Source: Myxococcaceae bacterium (GTDB lineage: Bacteria; Myxococcota; Myxococcia; Myxococcales; Myxococcaceae). Taken from it: DNA of 47,428 nucleotides. The notes under the pieces were generated by a model. That model worked only from the letters and a program-made list of their open reading frames with translations, made no database searches and was not told the DNA's origin. Both the position numbers and the translations under genes were made by a program. Positions 25,826 to 41,865 of the stretch are shown here, in pieces (the stretch's first letter is position 1; the number at the start of each line of letters is the position of its first letter). Location: contig JADGHL010000028.1 of assembly GCA_019686135.1 (NCBI GenBank), forward strand, positions 1-47,428. Direction: 5' to 3'.

Positions 25826-26782
25826 ATGCAGACGCCCACGTACACCGCGAAGCGCGTCGCCGAGATGCTCGGCGTGCCGCTGCGCACCCTTCAGGCGGCG
25901 CTCAAGAAGGATCCGTACACCGCTGCGGATCTGTGGGAGCTGCGCGGCACGCTGCAGAAGTACCCGCGGCCCATCGGCCACCGGAAGCAGCTCTTCCTCA
26001 ACTTCAAGGGCGGCACCGGGAAGACGTCACTCTCCTCGTCCTATGCGTACCGCCTGGCGGAGCTGGGCTACAGCGTCCTCCTCGTCGACCTCGACTCCCA
26101 AGGGCACGCCACCAAGTGCCTCGGCTTCGAAGGCGAGGATTTCGACAAGACGCTGCTGGACGTCCTGGTGCGCAAGACGCCGCTCACCGAGGTGATTCAG
26201 CACACCCCGCTGCCCAACCTGGACTTCATCCCCTCCAACCTCTCGATGAGCACGGTGGACCTCTCGTTGATGCCGATGGCCGGCCGCGAGTTCAAGCTCC
26301 GCAACGCGCTCCGCGAGGTGGAGGCCCGCTACGACGTCATCGTCTTCGACGCGCCGCCGTCCTTCGGGCTGCTCAACCTGAACGCGTTGATGGCCACCGA
26401 CGACCTCTTCGTCCCGGTGCTGGCCGACTTCCTCTCGTTCCACGGCCTCAAGCTCCTCTTCGAGACGGTGCACAGCCTCGAGGAGGACCTCGATCACATG
26501 CTGGCCAACGTGTTCATCGTCATCAACGCCTTCAACGCCACCTTCAAGCTGGCGAAGGAGGCGGTGGAGGCCCTCCGCGAGCACTATCCCGAGTACCTGC
26601 TCCCCACGGTGGTCCGGCAGTGCACCAAGTTCGCGCAGGCCTCGTCCGAAGGCGTGCCGGTGTTCGTCGCCGACCCCGAGTGCAAGGGCGCGCAGGACAT
26701 CGAGGCGATGATCACCGAGGCGCTCGAGCGCATCACCCGTTCCCCCGCCCGCGAGGCCGGCGCCTCGCGCCAGGTCAGCTGA
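25826..26782 (+). CDS. pomZ: PomZ, ParA/MinD-family ATPase of the division-positioning system
   Basis: A 318-residue ParA-family ATPase. An N-terminal MerR-like helix-turn-helix (YTAKRVAEMLGVPLRTLQ, residues 6-23) precedes the deviant Walker A KGGTGKT at 61-67. Walker A' is LLVDLDSQGHAT with D88/D90, and Walker B is VIVFDAPPSFG from 171. G62, K66, D90 and K268 (QCTKFAQ) fall exactly at the numbers of residues I recall being mutated in M. xanthus PomZ to block dimerisation, hydrolysis or DNA binding. That supports orthology. PomZ dimers bind the chromosome and translocate the PomX/PomY cluster to midcell. The gene lies between pomY (18 bp) and pomX (10 bp), probably in one transcript. Confidence 0.92.
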   Translation: MQTPTYTAKRVAEMLGVPLRTLQAALKKDPYTAADLWELRGTLQKYPRPIGHRKQLFLNFKGGTGKTSLSSSYAYRLAELGYSVLLVDLDSQGHATKCLGFEGEDFDKTLLDVLVRKTPLTEVIQHTPLPNLDFIPSNLSMSTVDLSLMPMAGREFKLRNALREVEARYDVIVFDAPPSFGLLNLNALMATDDLFVPVLADFLSFHGLKLLFETVHSLEEDLDHMLANVFIVINAFNATFKLAKEAVEALREHYPEYLLPTVVRQCTKFAQASSEGVPVFVADPECKGAQDIEAMITEALERITRSPAREAGASRQVS

Positions 26783-26792
26783 TGGAGTCGCG

Positions 26793-27983
26793 ATGAAGAA
26801 GGCCTTCGACAACAACGTCTCCCGCGCGCGGCCCCGGCTGCGGCTCGGCGCGCTGGTCGAAGCGGCCGAAGCCGCCGCCGCGGAGGTGAACCAGGCTTCG
26901 GCGCCCGCCGAAGCGCCGGCGGCCGATCTCAAGGCAGCGGTGAAGGCGAAGACCTCGCGCCCGCCCAGGCCCACCGCGGTCGAAGCCGTCCAGCGGGCGA
27001 TCGCCCAGAGCGCGGCGGCCCAGCCCCCGCTGCTGGAGGAATCTCCCGGCGCGCCGCGGACGCTCGCCCCGCGCGCGCAGCAGATCGTCGCGCAGGCCAC
27101 CGCCGCCGTGCTGGGCACGACGGTCGACGAGGCGGCGGTGATTGCACACGCGGAGTCGTTCGTGGAGAACGCCCGCATCCCCGACGCTGCGGCCGGGCCC
27201 GCTGTCCGGGACCCATCGCCCGCCCATCCGGTGGAGGACGCACCACGCGTGCGCGCGTTCGCCGAACCGCCCGACCACGCGGTGGAGGTCCAGACGCCGG
27301 CGCCGGAGCGCCCTGCGCCCGAGCTGTCTGAAGACGCGGCGACCCGGCGCGAGCGCCTCAAGGAGCGCCTGCGCGCGGTGCGCGAGAACCCGCGCCCCGA
27401 GCCGCTCCCGCCGAGCGTGGCGGAGGCGGGCGTGCTCGCGGTGGAGCGGATCGGCTCGCTGCAGGCGGAGCTGGCGAAGCTGCGCGCCATGAACCTGGCC
27501 CTGACCCAGGATCTGGAGAGCGCGCGCCGTCAGGCGGAGAAGGCCACCGAGGAGGCGCGGCTGCGGATGGAGGAGTCGCGGCGCCTCTCCCGGGAGATGG
27601 AAGGGCGGGTGAAGCTGCTCCAGGAGCTGGAGCGCGAGCTCGCCGCGCTGGAGGGCGAACGCGACGACGCTTTGCTCGCGCTGCAGGATGCGCGCGCGCA
27701 GGTGGAGGCGGAGGTGAAGGAGCGCGAGGGGCTGCAGCAGGAGATCGCCCGGCGCGACGCGGCGCTGGCCGAGAGCCTCGCCGAAGAGGAGCGGCTGTGC
27801 AGCGAGCTCGAGAGCGCGCGCGAAGAGGCCGCCACGCTGCGCCGTTCGGTGGACGCGCTCACCTCCGAGCGGGACACGCTGGCGCGCCAGGTCGCGGAGC
27901 TCACCCGCGAGCGTGCGGAGCTGCTCGAGGCGCGCAAGGCGCTGGAGGCGGTGCACCGCGCTCTGCACAAGGCCTCGGTCTAG
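26793..27983 (+). CDS. pomX: PomX-like scaffold protein, activator of PomZ
   Basis: A 396-residue cytosolic protein, close to the 404 I recall for M. xanthus PomX. The N-terminal peptide MKKAFDNNVSRARPRLRLGA is basic and short; in M. xanthus the corresponding first 22 residues stimulate PomZ ATPase activity through positive charges at positions 13 and 15, which here are Arg13 and Arg15. Residues about 25-215 are Ala/Pro-rich and unstructured. From about 225 to the end is a long continuous coiled coil (Glu/Arg/Leu-rich) that would form the filament-building part. PomX recruits PomY and positions division with PomZ. The ATG follows GGAGTC and starts 10 bp after the pomZ stop. Confidence 0.9.
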   Translation: MKKAFDNNVSRARPRLRLGALVEAAEAAAAEVNQASAPAEAPAADLKAAVKAKTSRPPRPTAVEAVQRAIAQSAAAQPPLLEESPGAPRTLAPRAQQIVAQATAAVLGTTVDEAAVIAHAESFVENARIPDAAAGPAVRDPSPAHPVEDAPRVRAFAEPPDHAVEVQTPAPERPAPELSEDAATRRERLKERLRAVRENPRPEPLPPSVAEAGVLAVERIGSLQAELAKLRAMNLALTQDLESARRQAEKATEEARLRMEESRRLSREMEGRVKLLQELERELAALEGERDDALLALQDARAQVEAEVKEREGLQQEIARRDAALAESLAEEERLCSELESAREEAATLRRSVDALTSERDTLARQVAELTRERAELLEARKALEAVHRALHKASV

Positions 27984-32161: not shown

Positions 32162-33184
32162 CTAGAGCGCGGCGAGCGCCGGGCTGATCGGATCTGCGGT
32201 GTAGCCCTGCTCCGGCCCATACGGCGCGCCGGGAGAGCGGAGCGGATCCTTCGCGAACTGGTTCAGGATCGACTTCACGTTGGCGATCCGCTCCTGCTTC
32301 GGCGGGTGCGTGTCGTGCTGGAAGGTATCGGGGAGCATGCCGAGGAACTTCGCGTACTCGGCGGGCTGGTATCCGGCCAGCACCAGAAGGCTCATCGCGT
32401 CGTAGTCCGCCTGGGTCTCCTGCTTCGGATCGAACTTCTCGTGCTGCAGCGCGGCCGCCACCGAGGCGCCCATGTTCGCCAGCACGTCCTCGGCGCCGCG
32501 GAAGTCGAGGTGGCCAAGGTCGCTGCCGAACGACGCCGCCAGCTTCGAGGTGACCGCGGACGCCGCCTTCCCGGCGATGCCGGCCGCCACGTAGTTGCGG
32601 CACTGTTCCACCTTCACCTCGCGGTACTTGTTGAGCGCGTGCCGCCCGGTGACGTGGGCGATCTCGTGCGCCAGCACGCCGGCGAGCTGCGCTTCGTTCT
32701 CCACCTTCTTGAGCAGCCCGCGCGTGACGAACACCAGCCCTCCGGGAGTGGACCACGCGTTCACGGTGTCCGAGTCGAGGATGGAGAACGTCCAGGCGAG
32801 GTGGGGGCGCTCGGAGAGGGCGGCGAGCTTTGTGCCCAGCTGGTTGAGCGCGATCGTCGGCGCGTTCGCCGGATCGTCCACGTTCCGGCCGATGAGGATG
32901 CCTCCGTTGGCCGCGGCCAGCTGGATCGCCGCGGCCTCGCCGATCGTGCGCTCCTCGTCCAGGGCGATGTCCTGCGTGCGGAGGCGATCACACCGGTTGA
33001 CCGCGTCGCCCGCAGTGCCGGTCACCGCCTTCAGCTTCTCGGAGGCGTTCGCCACCTCGCGCGCGTCCTCGCGGGTCTCGTTCAGGGAGCGGGCCGCGTC
33101 CCCCAGCGCACCGGGGAGCTGAGGCCCGTTCGCGCACGGCCCCGCGGCGGCGATCACGCCGACCAGCGCCAGGGTGAGCCTCAT
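32162..33184 (-). CDS. M48-family (Ste24/HtpX-like) zinc metalloprotease, exported
   Basis: A 340-residue periplasmic protease candidate. An N-terminal signal (residues 1-16, AAAGPC) is followed by a helical Asp/Glu/Ala-rich part. The zinc motif is HEIAH at 173-177 in VLAHEIAHVTGRHAL, with a probable third ligand E256 in KQETQADYDAM. Single-domain M48 enzymes of this size (BepA/LoiP-like) are envelope quality-control proteases. Cys17 follows Pro, so a lipobox is doubtful. The start overlaps the stop of the SH3-like gene by four bases (ATGA), and the gene ends the four-gene cyclase operon. The tail (after 300) contains HPPKQERIANVKSIL. Confidence 0.9.
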   Translation of the reverse strand: MRLTLALVGVIAAAGPCANGPQLPGALGDAARSLNETREDAREVANASEKLKAVTGTAGDAVNRCDRLRTQDIALDEERTIGEAAAIQLAAANGGILIGRNVDDPANAPTIALNQLGTKLAALSERPHLAWTFSILDSDTVNAWSTPGGLVFVTRGLLKKVENEAQLAGVLAHEIAHVTGRHALNKYREVKVEQCRNYVAAGIAGKAASAVTSKLAASFGSDLGHLDFRGAEDVLANMGASVAAALQHEKFDPKQETQADYDAMSLLVLAGYQPAEYAKFLGMLPDTFQHDTHPPKQERIANVKSILNQFAKDPLRSPGAPYGPEQGYTADPISPALAAL

Positions 33185-33666
33185 CGCCCGCCTCCTTTCA
33201 CCTTCTTCGCGATCACCGCCTCGACCCGCTGCAGATCCTCCACCGCCTTCTGCGCGGCCTCCGGATCGGGCGCGTGCGCGGCGGACTTGCGCGACTCCTC
33301 GGTGAGCCCGCGCGCTGCAGCGCCGTAGGCGGCGGACGCCTGGGCGTCGATGTGGTGCGCGCCGTCCTGCTTCACCACCACCTCGGTCTTCGGCGCGGTC
33401 GCGGAGACGGTGTTGAAGAGGACGTAGCCGACGACTCCCTTCGCGGTCTTCACCTTGTGGAACTTCGTGCCCTTGACCTGCTCGATCCACACGAGCTTGT
33501 CGCCCGGCTGCAGCGGTGCGCCGATGGGTCGCGCGCCATCGGGATCCTTGAACACCCGGGTGTCGCGGGCGCGGACGTAGATGGTGTCGCCGGACCCGAG
33601 CGCCCACGAAGCGCCAGCCCCCAGTGCCACCAGGGCGCCAAGTCCCAGCAGCGTCGATCGCTTCAT
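33181..33666 (-). CDS. exported SH3-like (SH3b) domain protein
   Basis: A 161-residue exported protein: an N-terminal signal or anchor (MKRSTLLGLGALVALGAG), then an SH3b-like beta region (about 25-90, DTIYVRARDTRVFKDPDGAR, PIGAPLQPGDKLVWI, KGVVGYVLFNTVS) and an Ala/Glu-rich helical tail to residue 161. SH3b domains bind peptidoglycan or peptide ligands in the periplasm. I took the ATG at 33666, where the signal sequence starts; a GTG at 33687 would overlap the cyclase stop (GTGA) and add seven residues. The stop overlaps the M48 start by four bases. It may deliver substrates or cell-wall contact for the protease; this is inference. Confidence 0.75.
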   Translation of the reverse strand: MKRSTLLGLGALVALGAGASWALGSGDTIYVRARDTRVFKDPDGARPIGAPLQPGDKLVWIEQVKGTKFHKVKTAKGVVGYVLFNTVSATAPKTEVVVKQDGAHHIDAQASAAYGAAARGLTEESRKSAAHAPDPEAAQKAVEDLQRVEAVIAKKVKGGGR

Positions 33667-33683
33667 GGGCGGCGAGCCTACGT

Positions 33684-36080
33684 TCACTTCTCCAGGTTTG
33701 CCACCCCGTCAAAGTCCGGCGGGAGCGCGCCCCGGTACTTCTCGCAACGCTGTCGCAACGTGTGCGCGGGGCCGTCGTCGGGATCGATCGCCTCGAGCTT
33801 CGCGAGCGTGACCAGCGCCTCGTCGAACTGCCGTGCGCGGTACTGCGCCAGCGCCTCTTCGTAGAGCCGGACGACCGTCCGTTTCGTCTCGCTCAGCTCG
33901 CCTTTGAGGGCGAGCAGCTCGTAGACGACCACCGCCTCCCTTTTGCCGGCGACGCGGACGCGATCGAGCTCGCGGACCTCGATGAAGTCCTTCGCCAGCT
34001 CCCGGGTGCGCGCGCCGATCATAATCGACGTGCCGTACGCCTTGTTGGCGCCCTCCAGCCGCGAGGCGAGGTTCATGTCGTCGCCCATCGCGGTGTAGTC
34101 GAAGAGCTGTTCGCTCCCGAAGTTGCCCACCAGCATCTCGCCGGAGTTGAGGCCGATGCGGGTGTACACGTCGGGGAGGCCCTCCTTGCGGAATTCCTCG
34201 CGCAGCCGTGCCACCTCCGCCTGCGCCGCCAGCGCGGCCCGGCACGCGCGGACCGCGTGATCTGATTGGCGCAGCGGCGCGCCGAACAGGCACACCACCG
34301 CGTCGCCGATGTACTTGTCGAGGCAGCCGCCCTCGCGCACCAGCACCGCGGAGACCCGGGTGAGGTACGTGTTGAGCACGCGCACCAGCTTCTCCGGCTC
34401 GCGCTTGAGGCCCTCGGAGAAGGTGGAGAAGCCGCGGATGTCGGAGAAGAACGCGGTGATCTCCCGGATCTCCCCTTCCAGCCGCGGGAGCTCGTTGGAG
34501 ACGTCGAGCTGTTCGACCAGCGTGCGGTCGAGGTAGCGGACGAAGCTCGCCTTCAGCTTCTCCCGCTTGCGATCGGCGAACAGCCGCGCGAACGCCACCG
34601 AGGTGAGCGACGCCGGGATCCCCGCCCACACCGGCATCGCCGCGGGCAGGTGGACGTGCCAGTGCCGCAGCACGAGGCCGGAGACGACGAAGAAGCCGGC
34701 GTACAGAACGATGGGCCAGCCGACGTTGACGAACAAGTTGCGGAAGATCTTCCCGATCGCGGCGGAGAGGAAGGCGATGAGGAAGGTCACGGCGATCGCC
34801 AGCCACAGGGGCGCGTCGACGATGAAGCGGCCACCGAGCAAGGCGTCGAGGACGGCCGCCTGTTTGACGCAGCCGGGATCCAGCGAAGCGAACGGCGTGG
34901 CCTTGGCGTCCTGGGTCGCCACCGCGAAGCCGCCCACCACCACGACTTTGTCCCGGAACGCGCCTTCGGGGATGTGCCTTGGTCCGTCCGGAGAGAAGTG
35001 GTCGATCAACGCGGCGATCAGCGAGTAATGGTCGAAGCGTTCGGCCAGAGGTCCGCCAAAGTCGATGAGCGCGCTCCCGTCGCGGTTGACCTCGAACCTT
35101 CGCGCACCGAGCCGAAGCACGCCGTCTCCGAGTGCGACCTCGCGCGCCCCAAGGAGATCCGCCGCGGCGGCGATGGGGAGCGTGACGTAGCGGTTCGTCC
35201 CGTCGGTGTACGCAAAGCGCGTGCGGCGGATGACGCCGTCCGGGTCCTGTTCCGGTTCCACCAGCCCGGCGCCGCTCACTGCGCCGAGAAGCTCCGGCGC
35301 GGGTGGCAGCGGTTCGCGCATCAGCTTCTCACGGTGACCGGAGAGATCCGTGTACGTCTGCTCGAGCGTGGGCAGCGCGTCTCCTTGAACCGGGAAGGCG
35401 ACCCGCTCGTAGCTCCAGCGCAAGAGGGCCGCTTCGTGCGCGCGCTGCGCCGCAGGATCGGGCGCCACCTCGCTGTCGATCGCGAAGGCCTCGGCGGGGA
35501 CCACGCCGTCGGGCGGCGGCGGCAACGCCGGTGCCGGAGGGATGGCCTCGCCGGGCAGAAGGTTCCGTGCTTCCACCTTCGGCCGCTCCGCGGGCGGGTG
35601 CGTCGGCTTCTGGAGCGCGAAGCCCAGGTAAACCGGTAGGCGCGTGGCTTCGATGGCGGCGCGCAGGCGGAGATCGCCTCCGTCCTCGGCGGTGGTGTCC
35701 ATCACCAGATCGAAGATCACCGCGCGGGCCCCCTGCACCTTCAGGTACTCGAGGAGGTCCGCCCAGATGCCGCGGTAGTACGGCCACTTTCCGTAGCGAT
35801 CGCGCAGCTCGTGCTGGCCCTGGTCGTTGGTGTAGCCGTCGATGAACTGCAGCGTCTGGTCGTCGACGGCGATCACCGCCACGCGCTCCGACTTGTCGGC
35901 CCGGCGCGTGAACGCCTCGAGCGCCTGGTCGTAGGCCTTGAGTTCGGAGGCGTGGATCCGCAGCCAGTTCATCCGCCAGCACAGGGTGACCGCGGCGGTG
36001 AACACGGTGGCGATGCCGAGGATCTGCCAGATGTTCCGTGAGAAGCGGTACCAGCGGATGAGCCACCACTGCCGCGTCAT
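33684..36080 (-). CDS. CHASE2-domain class III adenylate/guanylate cyclase
   Basis: A 798-residue membrane sensor cyclase. After a first membrane segment (about 15-35) comes a large periplasmic CHASE2 domain (about 50-425, with VAVIAVDDQTL and GARAVIFDLVMDTT and a late DKVVVVGGFA). Three TM helices at about 430-510 (LWLAIAVTFLIAFL, WPIVLYAGFFVVSGLV, WAGIPASLTSVAFARLF) lead to the cyclase domain (about 535-720). Metal ligand D547 lies in FFSDIRGFS, the second in KYIGDAV, and the purine-specifying Lys (DKYIGD) and Asp (YTAMGDDMN), with Asn/Arg of MNLASRLE, fit an adenylate cyclase. A short TPR-like C-tail follows. Translationally coupled to the upstream 361-residue gene (ATGA at 36077-36080) and followed by the SH3-like and M48 genes. 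Confidence 0.93.
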   Translation of the reverse strand: MTRQWWLIRWYRFSRNIWQILGIATVFTAAVTLCWRMNWLRIHASELKAYDQALEAFTRRADKSERVAVIAVDDQTLQFIDGYTNDQGQHELRDRYGKWPYYRGIWADLLEYLKVQGARAVIFDLVMDTTAEDGGDLRLRAAIEATRLPVYLGFALQKPTHPPAERPKVEARNLLPGEAIPPAPALPPPPDGVVPAEAFAIDSEVAPDPAAQRAHEAALLRWSYERVAFPVQGDALPTLEQTYTDLSGHREKLMREPLPPAPELLGAVSGAGLVEPEQDPDGVIRRTRFAYTDGTNRYVTLPIAAAADLLGAREVALGDGVLRLGARRFEVNRDGSALIDFGGPLAERFDHYSLIAALIDHFSPDGPRHIPEGAFRDKVVVVGGFAVATQDAKATPFASLDPGCVKQAAVLDALLGGRFIVDAPLWLAIAVTFLIAFLSAAIGKIFRNLFVNVGWPIVLYAGFFVVSGLVLRHWHVHLPAAMPVWAGIPASLTSVAFARLFADRKREKLKASFVRYLDRTLVEQLDVSNELPRLEGEIREITAFFSDIRGFSTFSEGLKREPEKLVRVLNTYLTRVSAVLVREGGCLDKYIGDAVVCLFGAPLRQSDHAVRACRAALAAQAEVARLREEFRKEGLPDVYTRIGLNSGEMLVGNFGSEQLFDYTAMGDDMNLASRLEGANKAYGTSIMIGARTRELAKDFIEVRELDRVRVAGKREAVVVYELLALKGELSETKRTVVRLYEEALAQYRARQFDEALVTLAKLEAIDPDDGPAHTLRQRCEKYRGALPPDFDGVANLEK

Positions 36081-37162
36081 GGCGCCTCACCCGCGAGCGC
36101 AGTGGCCACGCGTGCGCGGAGCGCGCAGTCGTCCTTCCGGGCCGCGATGAGCTCCGATAGCAGTGTCTGCGCGACCTCTTCGGCGGCGGCGAAGATCCGC
36201 TCCTGTTCGGCGACGTCCTTCCGCGCGGCGGCCGCGTTGAAGTCGCCGGAGAGCTTCACCATCCGGCGCTCGGATCCGGCCAGGTCCAGTCCCGGGATGC
36301 CGTTGGCCGAGCGCAGCAACGCGGCGTGCTGTTCGGTGACCCGGTTCCAGCGCGCCATCACCACCCGCGCGTTGCGCGTCTGCTCCTCGGCGGCGAGCGC
36401 GGCGAGCCGCGCGAGCAACCTGTCCAGCTCGTTCGCATCCGGACCGGTGATGGTCGAAAGCTCGGCGCGCGCCTTCTGGAACGCGACGGCACCGGTCCAC
36501 GTCGCAGCGGCGAGCCGGTGGTAGAGCGTGCCCGTACGCGCCTTCGGAGGAAGGGCGCCCAGCGCGAGCGCCGCCTCCTGCCAGCGGCTCGTCCGCAGCG
36601 CGGCGGCGGCACTCTGCAGGAGCGCGTCCGGAGCGGCCTTCGGGCGCGCCTTCTTCGGGACCGGGAAGGAATCCAGCGGGACCACCGGGGGCTCACAGCT
36701 CGTGCACACCGCGCCCACCTGCACGAGCGTCAGCCCGGCGTCGCCGTCGTCCTCGGCGTGGATCAACACGGGCTGGTAGGGAGAGAAGCGGAGCGTCGCG
36801 GTGATCGGTTCGCGCCCGGGCGCTTCCACGCGCACCTCGTGGCTCCCCGGCGGAAAGCGCTTCGGGGCCTCCGGCGGAGAGAAGGCCGGCTTGCCATCGA
36901 GGAAGAGGCGGACGTCGCCTACGGCCCAGAGGATCACCGGCGGGTTCTCGGCGAACGGCTCGGCGCGGCGGAGCGAGGGCAGGGCGACGGTGCAGCCGGC
37001 GGCGGCCCCTGCGTCGGCGTGCGCCTCGGCGACCGGTCGGCTGGTCTCGCCGCGCGGCAGCGCCGGACGGTGCAGGGACGACAGCCCCACGACGACCGCC
37101 GCCAGGAGCAACGCCGCCCCCGCGCACGCGGCGATCCAGAGGGTGGGCGAACGGCGGGCCAT
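36077..37162 (-). CDS. TM-anchored protein of unknown function, first gene of the CHASE2 cyclase operon
   Basis: A 361-residue protein with an N-terminal membrane anchor (about 8-30) and a periplasmic body. A PEGA-like beta region spans about 75-130 (ILWAVGDVRLFLDGKPAF, PGSHEVRVEAPG); then come a short CTSC pair near residues 152-155, a basic Pro linker and a helical Ala-rich C terminus (about 180-361). It lacks known catalytic motifs. Its stop overlaps the start of the cyclase gene by four bases, so it may be a sensor or partner for CHASE2. The ATG at 37162 faces the divergent J-domain gene across 55 bp. Function is inferred only from position. Confidence 0.7.
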   Translation of the reverse strand: MARRSPTLWIAACAGAALLLAAVVVGLSSLHRPALPRGETSRPVAEAHADAGAAAGCTVALPSLRRAEPFAENPPVILWAVGDVRLFLDGKPAFSPPEAPKRFPPGSHEVRVEAPGREPITATLRFSPYQPVLIHAEDDGDAGLTLVQVGAVCTSCEPPVVPLDSFPVPKKARPKAAPDALLQSAAAALRTSRWQEAALALGALPPKARTGTLYHRLAAATWTGAVAFQKARAELSTITGPDANELDRLLARLAALAAEEQTRNARVVMARWNRVTEQHAALLRSANGIPGLDLAGSERRMVKLSGDFNAAAARKDVAEQERIFAAAEEVAQTLLSELIAARKDDCALRARVATALAGEAP

Positions 37163-37217
37163 CGGGCGTGGGAGGAAATTGCGGAAAGGAGCCGCGCCCC
37201 ATTCTACCCTGCGCGCG
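37163..37217. promoter_or_regulatory. 55-bp divergent promoter region between two cyclase operons
   Basis: Only 55 bp separate the ATG at 37162 (minus) and the GTG at 37218 (plus). Both operons must be controlled from this stretch or from within the neighbours, so co-regulation by a shared site is likely. It contains CGGAAAGGAG near 37183-37192, which could be the plus-strand leader; I see no firm -10/-35 pair. Confidence 0.45.
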
Positions 37218-37985
37218 GTGGTCGACGTCCTCTACTTCTCCGACCGCGACGTGAAGCGGAAGCTCTTCGAGCGCGTGGATGGCGCCAGGCGCCCGCTCAT
37301 CGTCGTGCAGATCCGCACCGATAGGTACGCCCGGCCGCCGCAGCAGCGCGAGCCTTTCGTCTCCATCGAGCGCGAGTTCGGCGATCTGGTCGATCTGATT
37401 GTCGTCGCCGACGAGGGCTCCACCGAGGGGATGTGGCGCGACCCGGTGGGCGACCTCGCCGATCGCTTCTTCCCCAACGACCGCGAAGCCTCCTTCGCGG
37501 CGGCCACGGGCTACATGCTGATCGTCGGCGGAGAGGTCCGGGCCACCATCAAGAAGCGCGGCGTGTCGGCGGAGGACTTCTGGTTGATCCAGGAGGCGCT
37601 GTCGGGCCACATCCCCGGAATTCCGCCGCCGGATCCGGCGCTGCGGCCCGGAAAGCGCAAGCGTTCGGCAGGCCCGACATGGTCTTCGCACGACGAACGC
37701 GCACAGGCCCATCCTGACGCCGACGAAGACACGCAACCGCGCGCACGGATACCGCCACAACGCGCGCAAGCGGGCGCGGACGATCCGTGGAAGCGCCTCG
37801 GGATCGCCCCCGGCACGCCGTTGTCCGAGGCGAAGAAGGCTTTCCGCGCGATGATCGCCCAGTACCACCCGGACAAGGTCGCTCACCTCGCGCCCGAGTT
37901 CCGTGAGCTCGCGGAGCGCCGCACCCGGGAGATCCTCGACGCATGGCGGCAGTTGGAGGCGCTCGCGGAGGAGGAGGGCGGATGA
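37218..37985 (+). CDS. J-domain protein (C-terminal DnaJ domain) with unknown N-terminal domain
   Basis: A 255-residue protein. Residues 1-145 form a globular region of unknown family (opening [19 protein letters not shown], later [12 protein letters not shown] and [11 protein letters not shown]). A charged linker follows, then a J domain at about 195-250 ([33 protein letters not shown]) with the Hsp70-stimulating HPD at 217-219. J domains at the C terminus recruit a DnaK chaperone to a partner bound by the other domain. The GTG start is the only plausible one before the conserved opening. Its stop overlaps the ATG of the downstream cyclase (ATGA), so the pair is translated together. Confidence 0.8.
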
Positions 37986-39511
37986 GCCGCGCCACCCGGT
38001 TCCTCTGGGTCATCCCCACGCTTCACACGCTGGCCAATTGGATCGCCTCGCTGGTCGGCATCCTCTACGGAATCGTCACCTTCCTGCCGACCATGCCGGA
38101 GGCGGCGCGGCCGCGCGCGTTCATCTGGGTGGCCATCTGCATCGTCGGGTCGTCCATGGTGGTGCTGCCCACCATCACGTGGCTCTGCACCCCCATCGCC
38201 CGCGCGCTCCGGCACCTCGATGCGGGGACGCTCACGCCCGAGGAGCGCGTGGTGACCGTCCGCCGCGCGCTGCACGCGCCGGGCGTGTTCGCCGGCATCG
38301 CGCTGGTGGTCTGGATCCTCTCCGCGTTCTCGCTCTTCATCGCGTTCCCTCCGCCCGGGCCGGAGAACGGCCGCACCCTGATGCACGCGTTCACCGCGGT
38401 GCTGGTCGTGGGGTTCATCGCGTTCACCTGCGAGTTCTACGTGCTGGAACAGCACATCACCGAACGCGTGGTGCCGGACCTGCTGGGCGGCTTCCCCGCG
38501 ACGAAGGTGCCCGGCCTGCACTCGCCCACGCTCGGGTTCCGGATGCTGGTGCTGTTGACCACCACCTGCGCGGTGCCGGTGAGCGTGCTGACGGTGGCCA
38601 CGCTGCTGGACGTGGTGAGCCCGCTCGGGACGATCCTGCTCGGGGTCTCCTTTCTGTTCCTCGGCGGTCTGCAGTGGAGCTTCATCGCGCGCACACTCGG
38701 GCGGAGGCTCGCGGACCTCGGCCGGGCGATGGAGCGGATCCGCCGCGACGAGCTCGACGCGCACGTGCCGGTGCTGGCGAACGACGCGCTGGGCCGGCTG
38801 GGCGAAGGGTTCAACAGCATGGTGGAGGGCCTTCGGCGAGGGCACTACGTCAAGGAGACCTTCGGCCGCTATGTCGCGCCGCAGGTGGTGGAGGAGATCC
38901 TCGGCGGGAAGATTGCCCTGGGCGGCGAGGAGCGCTTCGTCACGGTGCTGTTCACGGACATCCGCGGCTTCACCGCGATGAGCGAGGATCTGGCGCCGGC
39001 GGAGGTGGTGCGCTTCCTCAACCAGTTCCTCGACCGGATGGTGGAGGTGCTGGTGCGGCACGGCGGCACCATCGACAAGTTCATCGGTGATTCGGTGATG
39101 GCCACCTTCGGGGTGCCCATCACCCGCAGCCCGGAGGAGGACGCGCGCGCGGCGGTGAGCGCAGCGCTGGACATGGTGGCGGCGCTGGAGGACTGGAACC
39201 GCGAACGCGTGGCGGCCGGAGAGCCGCCGGTGCGGATCGGCATCGGGATGCACAGCGGGGTGGTGGTCGCCGGCAACATCGGTTCGGCGCAAAAGACCGA
39301 GTACACGGTCATCGGCGATACGGTGAACACCGCCTCGCGCATCGAGGCGCTCACCAAGCACTTCGACGCGGAGGTGCTGATCTCCGAGAGGACCCGCGCG
39401 CTGGTGGGCGACGGCTTCGACCTCACCGAGCTCGCGCCCATCGAAGTGCGCGGCAAGAAGGAACCGGTGCGGCTGTTCGCGGCGCGGAGGGCGCGGCGCG
39501 GGGCGGCGTAG
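37982..39511 (+). CDS. six-TM HAMP-linked class III adenylate cyclase
   Basis: A 509-residue membrane cyclase. About six TM helices occupy residues 5-240 (for example [36 protein letters not shown]), then a HAMP domain at about 238-290 ([32 protein letters not shown]). The cyclase domain (about 310-490) has metal ligands D326 (FTDIRGFT) and D370 (KFIGDSV), Lys366 and the Asp of YTVIGDTVN for adenine, and Asn/Arg of TVNTASRIE for the transition state. All catalytic residues are present, so it should make cAMP. It overlaps the J-domain gene by four bases and ends before a perfect seven-base inverted repeat. Confidence 0.93.
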
Positions 39512-39540: not shown

Positions 39541-40258
39541 CTACGCCAGCCACTCCTCCGGGGCGGTGGAGAGGAACTGCTCCACCGGAATGCCCCCGGT
39601 CCCGATCCTGAGGATCCTCATCTTCGGGTACCGCGCCCGGAACGCCTCCAGCCCCGCCGAGCCCGTGCTCCACCACGAAGTCCACCTCGGCGTTGCCCTC
39701 CCGCCAGTAGTAGGTCGAACGCACCAGCCCGTGGCTGAGGAAGTGCGCGCCCACCGCGTTCTCCACCAGCCGTCCCCAGAGGTCTCCACTTCTGCGCGCT
39801 TCTGCGAAGGAGAGCCCCATCATCGACGTGACCGGCGCGTTGTTCCACGCGATGAACTTCGGCTTCGAGGCCCGCTGTCTGAGCGCGCCGTCGGACCACG
39901 CGTTGAGCCCGGTGAGGAGAAACGAACCGGAGAGCAGCTCCATATAGTGGGCGAGCGTGGTGGTGTTCCCCGCGTCCTGGAGCTGCCCGAGCATCTTGTT
40001 GTACGCCAGCACCTGCGCGGGGAGGCGCGAGGCCAGCACGAAGAGCTGCCGCAGCAGCGCCGGCTTGGCGATCGTGGTCATCTGCAGCACGTCCCGCGAC
40101 AGCACCGACTCCACCAGCGAGTCGGTGATGAAGCGCTGCCAGCGGCGGGGTTCCTTCACCAGCGGCGCGGCGCCCGGAAGGCTGCCGCGGACCGGATGGA
40201 TGGAGAAGTCGGACGGCGCTGAGGGGGCGGCGGACGAGAGCGCGGCGGGTTGGGACAT
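39541..40258 (-). pseudogene. AAA-ATPase/DUF4143 gene remnant, N-terminally truncated and frameshifted
   Basis: On the minus strand a frame starting at 40258 encodes DUF4143-type sequence: WQRFITDSLVESVLSRDVLQ, MTTIAKPALLRQLF, LGQLQDAGNTTTLAHYMELL, WGRLVENAVGAHFLSHGL and STYYWREGNAEVDFVVEHG. Full members have an N-terminal AAA ATPase of about 170 residues; only a foreign-looking 40-residue leader is present. After EVDFVVEHG the frame is lost; the expected C-terminal end (LEAFRARYPKMRILRIGTGG, FLSTAPEEWLA) appears in another frame and ends at TAG 39541. About 20 residues (the EVKSG region) are missing at the break near 39650-39670. Such proteins are thought to be ATPases of unknown role. Two lesions make this a pseudogene. 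Confidence 0.8.
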
Positions 40259-40350
40259 CGGGCCCAGCGTAGTCGAGACCGCGGGGCGATTCCCGGCGAC
40301 TGAATCCGGTGCACAGCATGGCGGCCTCTCCGACCCCGAGGTGACGTGCC

Positions 40351-41865
40351 ATGTCCCTGTGTCGTTCCCTGTCGTTGTTCGTCGTCCTCTGCTCGCTGCC
40401 TGCGCTCGCGCAGAGCTCCCCGCGGTCGTTCTGGTACGGCGAGCGGATCGACGAGCCTGCCGCTTCGACACTTCACGCGGATCTGACCCGGCCGAACGGC
40501 GCGCTCGATCAGCTGATCCAATCGATGTTCCAGTTCGACAACAGCAACGGCCAGTCGGGCGTGACCGTGTACGATCCCCAGCGCGCCTGGAACGGCTACA
40601 CGCTGTTGAGCTCGCTCGGCGGACACTGGGCCTCGCCGGCCGGCCCGGTGAACTTCTCGATCCTCATCGACATGAACGGGAACGTGGTGAAGGAGTGGCC
40701 GCTGTTCGGCTTCCCCGCCAAGTTCCTGCCCGGCGGCCACGTCATCGGCGGCGGTAGCGGCGGGCTGCCGAACCATCAGGAGCAGGGCTCACTGGTGGAG
40801 ATGGACTGGTGCGGCAACCCGGTCTGGTCGTGGGCCGGCACCGGCAATCCGGGCGGCGCGCGCTGGCACCACGACTTCCAGCGCGAAGGCAACCCGGTCG
40901 GCTACTTCGCGCCGTTCCAGCCTCCGCTCCCCAACGGCGGCAGGACGCTGGTCCTCTCGCACGACAACCCGCCGCTGTCACAGACCCAGCACATCAGCGA
41001 CTTCCCGCTGGAGGATGACATCCTCTACGAGGTCGACGCCAACGGGAACGTGCTCTGGTCGTGGAACGCGTACCAGGCGTTCGAGCAGATGGGCTTCGAC
41101 GCGGAGGCGAAGGCGGCGATCAAGACGGTGAAGGTGGGTGCGCCCGGCTCCATCGGCGGCGGCTTCACCGAGACCGACTGGCAGCACCTCAACGCCGCGT
41201 CCTGGGTCGGGCCGAACAAGTGGTACGACCTCGGGGACGAGCGCTTCCACCCGGACAACATCATCGTCGACGGGCGCAGCTCGAACCTGATCGCCATCAT
41301 CGCCCGGCACGATCACCCGAAGGGGAAGTGGAAGTCGGGCGACATCGTCTGGCGCGTGGGCCCGAACTACGGGCCGGGCGAACCGGAGCACAAGCTCGGT
41401 CAGCTGATCGGCCAGCACATGGCGCACATCATCCCCAAAGGCCTGCCGGGCGCGGGCAACGTGCTCGTGTTCGACAACGGCGGGCTCGCCGGCTTCGGGC
41501 CGCTGATGCCCGGCCTGCCGCCGTACTGGCCGAACAAGTACCGAAGCTTCACCCGGGTCATCGAGTTCAACCCGCGCACGCTCGAGGTGGAGTGGGAGTA
41601 CGAAGTGCCGGAGGCGACTGCGGGAGAACGGAAGTTCTTCAGCTGGTACATCGGCGGTGCGCAGCGCCTGCTCAACGGCAACACGTTGATCACCGATGGC
41701 GCCAACGGCCGCGTGTTCGAGGTGACGAAGACGGGGAAGGTCGTCTGGGAGTTCATCTCGCCCTTCCAGCCGCCGTTCCCCACCGCGTTCGGCAACGACG
41801 TGTACCGCGCCTACCGGATCCCCGCGTGGTGGCTGCCCTTCAACCGGAACTGCCCGGCGCCGTGA
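40351..41865 (+). CDS. exported arylsulfotransferase-like (ASST) beta-propeller protein
   Basis: A 504-residue exported protein. A signal peptide spans residues 1-20 (ALA-QS cleavage). The body repeats Gly/Trp-rich sheets with VTVYDPQRAWNGYTLL, ILIDMNGNVVKEW, LPGGHVIGGG, LYEVDANGNVLWSW, FHPDNIIVDGRSSNLIAI, GQHMAHIIPKGLPGAGNVLV and VIEFNPRTLEVEWEY. This combination is typical of bacterial aryl sulfate sulfotransferases, six-bladed propellers that transfer sulfate between phenols without PAPS and use a catalytic His. Candidate His residues lie in FHPDN and GQHMAH. It may instead be a non-catalytic relative. A GAGGTGA site lies seven bases before the ATG. No neighbouring DsbA-like partner is seen. 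Confidence 0.7.
   Translation: MSLCRSLSLFVVLCSLPALAQSSPRSFWYGERIDEPAASTLHADLTRPNGALDQLIQSMFQFDNSNGQSGVTVYDPQRAWNGYTLLSSLGGHWASPAGPVNFSILIDMNGNVVKEWPLFGFPAKFLPGGHVIGGGSGGLPNHQEQGSLVEMDWCGNPVWSWAGTGNPGGARWHHDFQREGNPVGYFAPFQPPLPNGGRTLVLSHDNPPLSQTQHISDFPLEDDILYEVDANGNVLWSWNAYQAFEQMGFDAEAKAAIKTVKVGAPGSIGGGFTETDWQHLNAASWVGPNKWYDLGDERFHPDNIIVDGRSSNLIAIIARHDHPKGKWKSGDIVWRVGPNYGPGEPEHKLGQLIGQHMAHIIPKGLPGAGNVLVFDNGGLAGFGPLMPGLPPYWPNKYRSFTRVIEFNPRTLEVEWEYEVPEATAGERKFFSWYIGGAQRLLNGNTLITDGANGRVFEVTKTGKVVWEFISPFQPPFPTAFGNDVYRAYRIPAWWLPFNRNCPAP

Follow-up and report, generated by a model that had tools for sequence, protein, structure and literature searches.

A conserved CHASE2 adenylate cyclase-SH3-M48 gene unit of Myxococcaceae as a possible envelope sensor

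Two class III adenylate cyclases of distinct types, CHASE2 and 6TM-HAMP, lie in neighbouring operons together with a protease, an SH3-like protein, a PEGA-like protein and a J-domain protein, which raises the question of whether the whole locus serves one cAMP response or only a part of it belongs together. The window, i.e., the whole stretch of DNA that was analysed (47,428 nucleotides), corresponds to contig C85 in an assembly of 5.5 Mb, and the named relatives with a matching locus are Myxococcaceae.

Layout of the locus and its right half

The interval 32162-39511 holds six genes (Table 1), and not the eight of which the first-pass annotation had spoken. Its description of two divergent operons with 4-bp overlaps is borne out: such overlaps are present between the M48 and SH3 genes (ATGA), between the CHASE2 cyclase and PEGA-like genes, and between the J-domain and 6TM cyclase genes, while the SH3/CHASE2 overlap (GTGA) requires the GTG start, since starting at the ATG (33666) would put a short gap between the two genes. 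The two cyclases had also been described as immediate neighbours, back to back over a distance of 55 bp. The intergenic gap has exactly this length, but the genes flanking it encode the PEGA-like and J-domain proteins, both of which sit between the cyclase genes, the latter being 1.9 kb apart. No sigma-70 consensus was found in the gap, although myxobacterial promoters may differ. The distinction of two cyclase types holds (Table 1); since the source genome gives 13 class III cyclase matches, two neighbouring cyclases alone are unremarkable.

Table 1. Features of the locus, in window coordinates.
Feature	Position	Strand	Basis and remarks
M48 metalloprotease	32162-33184	-	PF01435 E 2.7e-28; signal sequence/probable lipobox Cys17; HEIAH, E256, H293-P294...R299 HP plug
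Exported SH3-like protein	33181-33687 (GTG start) or 33181-33666 (ATG start)	-	Signal-peptide-like N-terminus and orthologues; SH3_3 weak here, clear in fused homologues
CHASE2 class III adenylate cyclase	33684-36080	-	PF05226 E 2.1e-36, PF00211 E 9.9e-19; motifs; hydropathy
Membrane-anchored PEGA-like protein, 361 aa	36077-37162	-	No Pfam or NCBIfam match; model pLDDT 68; outside the conserved core
Divergent intergenic gap, 55 bp	37163-37217	.	Sequence
J-domain protein	37218-37985	+	Cys-less thioredoxin-like domain, then C-terminal J domain (HPDK)
6TM-HAMP class III adenylate cyclase, lineage-specific	37982-39511	+	PF00211 E 6.3e-31, HAMP E 1.5e-8; 6 hydrophobic segments

The 6TM cyclase has six transmembrane segments, a HAMP domain and an intact catalytic domain (Pfam and hydropathy), as expected for a 6TM-HAMP adenylate cyclase. 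Its N-terminal 288 residues (membrane part and HAMP) have one other match in 195 Myxococcota (30%), and a separate search with this cyclase gave, elsewhere, short HAMP-region matches only. The J-domain gene is more widespread, with orthologues in about a dozen genomes. Its assignment as DnaJ-type can be retained, as HPDK is present in 13 of 13 proteins checked and the orthologues are conserved, though the PF00226 score of 27.2 bits is just under the cut-off of 27.8. The N-terminal domain is thioredoxin-like by model, with weak fold matches (E 0.02-0.3); identity as a redox thioredoxin was rejected because CxxC is absent and the window protein has no Cys at all.

The first-pass annotation had combined both operons (two cyclases, J-domain and PEGA-like protein) into a single cAMP stress system. 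The adjacency and the 55-bp divergent gap in the source genome speak in its favour, as does the J-domain gene lying divergent from the CHASE2 unit, 6-14 kb off, in seven relatives with both on one contig. However, no second cyclase adjoins the J gene at any orthologous J locus, the next gene, where checked, being a convergent Exo_endo_phos gene (endonuclease/exonuclease/phosphatase family); the 6TM part has the one distant relative mentioned above; the J-domain/6TM-cyclase pair was found in the source genome only; and most relatives either lack the PEGA-like gene or carry it away from the unit. A gene order unique to the strain is what the first-pass annotation had itself named as refuting its model, and these distributions are such a result. 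We therefore regard the single system as improbable, and rejected the two-cyclase arrangement as a conserved unit. Judging by these distributions, the J-domain/6TM-cyclase operon is a lineage-specific neighbour, which may or may not share regulation with the CHASE2 unit. Downstream of the 6TM cyclase, at 39541-40471 on the minus strand, lies an apparent frameshifted remnant of a larger gene with open pieces in two frames, by eye possibly an AAA/DUF4143 ATPase, of which an 82-aa piece had no Pfam match.

As for the PEGA-like protein, the model (moderate confidence) combines a transmembrane helix with a transthyretin/PEGA-like beta sandwich and a helical C-terminal part; membership of the PEGA family was rejected, because there is no Pfam PEGA match and the beta-sandwich fold matches are weak. 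The gene is present in 12 of 60 relatives, and among the genomes examined no more than four or five have it directly upstream of the cyclase (the source genome, G002, G008, G009 and probably G005). On this distribution, it encodes a membrane protein that joined the operon in the source genome, and is not part of the conserved core.

The three core proteins and their conservation

The CHASE2 cyclase consists of TM1, a periplasmic CHASE2 domain (residues 32-436), three further transmembrane segments and the catalytic domain (Pfam and hydropathy). Its motifs FFSDIRGF, DKYIGD and YTAMGDDMNLASRLE, which carry the two metal Asp, the substrate Lys/Thr and the transition-state Asn/Arg, are intact, as are the catalytic motifs in the great majority of Myxococcaceae CHASE2 cyclases; by these features the gene encodes a class III adenylate cyclase, for which cAMP synthesis is predicted.

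The SH3-like protein is short and predicted to be exported. In the window the SH3_3 match (E 0.04) is below the Pfam cut-off, which left the earlier SH3-like call doubtful when taken alone; the orthologues (E 4.9e-4 at the M. xanthus locus) and the fused homologues described below (36-49 bits, above the cut-off) back it.

In the M48 protein, H173-E174-H177, E256, H293-P294 and R299 are each conserved in at least 90% of 55 orthologues, and the protein begins with a signal sequence, which in most relatives includes a lipobox-like Cys. An HExxH motif, a third-ligand Glu and a His-Pro plug with Arg at +6 define the BepA, LoiP, YcaL and HtpX type (PMC7950410). The nearest solved relatives are BepA and 3c37, an M48-family peptidase from Geobacter sulfurreducens (PMC7950410). 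By its residues, the protein is an HP-plug metalloprotease of the BepA/LoiP quality-control type. Orthology to BepA or LoiP was rejected, as the scores reach 87.8 of 570 and 28.6 of 365 bits against the NCBIfam equivalog cut-offs, i.e., the protein belongs to the same broad family only.

The surroundings of the cyclase orthologues, which are found in nearly every Myxococcaceae member, were searched with profiles made from the window proteins and from related sequences. CHASE2 cyclase, SH3 and M48 follow each other in the same order and on the same strand in 48/48 Myxococcaceae genomes with a long enough contig (short contigs are left out of this count, and one further contig stops within SH3). 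For the two-cyclase arrangement, whose neighbourhood the first-pass annotation had suggested surveying, no conservation was found. At the SH3/M48 junction the two genes share 4 bp in 44 of the 48 genomes and 1 bp in the other 4. Holders of the unit include Myxococcus (with the M. xanthus lineage), Corallococcus, Archangium, Hyalangium and Citreicoccus. Identity to the window proteins is 44-52% for the cyclases (five aligned) and about 29-37% for SH3 and M48, or about 30-55% for the proteins as a whole; at such low identity, the conserved order does not reflect recent descent of an unchanged stretch. The conservation of this operon exceeds chance. Gene order inside one family is nevertheless partly inherited, and this counts against the mechanism that we favour below.

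Absence is also shared. The genomes without the cyclase (G020, G033, G156, G021, G012, G171, G184, G039, G045, G054), which include three small genomes of one genus and three members of family f5, have neither SH3 nor an orthologous M48, their background M48 matches reaching at most 112 bits vs 224-431 bits in five of six holders tested; in the sixth (G005, 151 bits) the locus is split across contigs. The three genes are thus acquired or lost jointly. Several of the genomes with altered units are draft metagenome assemblies, so caution is needed over losses in single genomes. A domain-level contig scan for CHASE2 gave only Myxococcota-type loci, and a plasmid search for the module returned partial matches only (<60% coverage), the best being mostly alphaproteobacterial cyclases.

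Some further variation around the unit was observed. A ParA-type ATPase gene followed by a gene with weak coiled-coil-type similarity (25826-27983 in the window) show synteny: genomes of the Myxococcus type, as at L086 45-2299, have this pair in convergent orientation directly behind M48, with extra genes between in the window. The SH3-M48 pair is tandemly duplicated in G014 (L082 15249-18295), and second M48 copies are present in L088, L099, L103 and L106, those of L088 and L099 being without HExxH. Second, close copies of the CHASE2 cyclase without adjoining SH3 or M48 occur in L120 (G011) and L170 (Archangium violaceum).

Altered units and a possible mechanism

Outside Myxococcaceae, the unit is found as three separate genes with a 4-bp overlap (G068, G076, G037), and in four genomes of another family (G095, G092, G086, G077) SH3 and M48 form one polypeptide downstream of a CHASE2 cyclase, with a gap of about 0.7 kb in G092. 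Gene fusion is a classic sign of two proteins working together. In the G077 fusion, Pfam detects the SH3 part alone, and the M48 part is so degenerate that it shows up only with the profile made for this analysis. The fused M48 of G095, G086 and G077 has lost at least its catalytic Glu, which is retained in G092, while the cyclases of this group keep intact catalytic motifs. The reverse is seen in G002, where the catalytic Asn/Arg of the cyclase are lost, and in G068 and G076, where several motifs are lost, while M48 keeps its HExxH. Taken together, the degenerate cyclases and proteases indicate that neither activity is needed in every lineage, a point against the mechanism proposed below, and pseudoenzymes kept in the unit suggest that binding matters, and not catalysis alone.

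We tentatively propose, with somewhat less than even confidence, that the three-gene unit is an envelope sensor in which the SH3/M48 pair and the CHASE2 ectodomain report envelope protein quality as cAMP. The SH3-like protein would be the periplasmic adaptor of the M48 protease, and the pair would bind or condition the periplasmic CHASE2 domain, so that the condition of the envelope (outer-membrane proteins that are misfolded or stalled, or the status of the wall) may alter cAMP synthesis, a change probably read by Crp-family regulators. What we infer here is the physical contact with the cyclase, together with the stimulus, the output and the direction in which control runs; gene order, overlaps, co-inheritance, the SH3-M48 fusion, predicted export and active sites intact in nearly all family members are read from the sequences themselves. 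A more specific form, which we hold to be possible though doubtful, is a protease-coupled receptor cyclase, where the SH3 adaptor and M48 (or its inactive remnant) would join the CHASE2 domain in a periplasmic complex that gates cAMP synthesis, with pseudoenzyme parts in some lineages.

The same genes could also make up a shared stress operon, in which the genes are co-transcribed because the cyclase senses the very envelope stress that M48/SH3 repairs and the proteins never touch; conserved overlaps show co-translation only, and the M48 is of quality-control type. We consider this rather unlikely, since the 4-bp coupling, the co-loss of three genes and the retention of degenerate enzymes favour a fixed assembly. 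The degenerate cyclases in G002, G068 and G076, retained together with SH3-M48, could also mean that the cyclase serves the periplasmic pair mainly as a scaffold in the membrane or as an allosteric regulator, with cAMP secondary; this is quite unlikely, as by far most family genomes, and the fused group too, have intact cyclase motifs. As regards the envelope sensor that we prefer, the link between cAMP and envelope quality, which had been suggested for the whole locus, finds support in the left operon (conserved, overlapping, co-lost, partly fused, and with a BepA/LoiP-type protease).

Unlike the genome's other CHASE2 cyclase, the CHASE2 cyclase-SH3-M48 operon contains no gene for a Crp or phosphodiesterase effector, which counts against the envelope sensor. 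Behind that second cyclase (G000 contig C21 39054-41162; L003 1-1200) lie genes for a Crp-type regulator (cNMP_binding, HTH_Crp_2) and for a class II cAMP phosphodiesterase (PDEase_II). This cAMP circuit is apparently complete and provides the genome with a cAMP read-out. Similar orders of a cyclase and then a cNMP-binding-like gene are found at other Myxococcota loci.

Comparison with known systems

Mycobacterial Rv1318c-type cyclases have six transmembrane segments, HAMP and a class III catalytic domain, and the 6TM-HAMP cyclase of the window, likened to them by architecture alone, differs by its adjoining J-domain gene. For the left operon, a literature search for CHASE2 combined with M48 or SH3 found no description; the theme itself is not new, since CHASE2 sensors with an envelope partner are known from S. 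meliloti and Burkholderia. The S. meliloti CHASE2 cyclases CyaD1/CyaD2/CyaK act via the outer-membrane protein NsrA, with Clr (PMC13001267). Like the window protein, they are CHASE2 receptor cyclases, and their cAMP output depends on an envelope protein, but that partner is a barrel of the outer membrane by which a plant protein is sensed (PMC13001267), while here SH3-like and M48 proteins are encoded with overlaps. In the BiofilmReg operon of Burkholderiales, a CHASE2 histidine kinase occurs with a LysM/FecR periplasmic protein (PMC5192318), so that a CHASE2 sensor likewise adjoins an exported protein of wall-binding type; the difference is the histidine kinase output with a response regulator, and the lack of a protease. 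CHASE2 stimuli are described as not known (PMC5192318), with one case given (PMC13001267), and the conserved, overlapping pair of exported protease and adaptor is a concrete candidate for a CHASE2 signal. Through this pair, a connection from the quality control of outer-membrane proteins to cAMP also becomes testable in Myxococcus, a genetically tractable genus. In M. xanthus, CyaA and CyaB are osmosensing receptor adenylyl cyclases by the description given in PMC7643160 (citing Kimura 2002, 2005), and by that description alone they are comparable, as membrane-bound adenylate cyclases of myxobacteria with a role in the sensing of stress. Finally, the window M48 shares HExxH, the third-ligand Glu, the HP plug and export with E. 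coli BepA, LoiP and YcaL (PMC7950410), from which it differs by scoring far below the BepA/LoiP equivalog cut-offs and by its genetic coupling to a cyclase.
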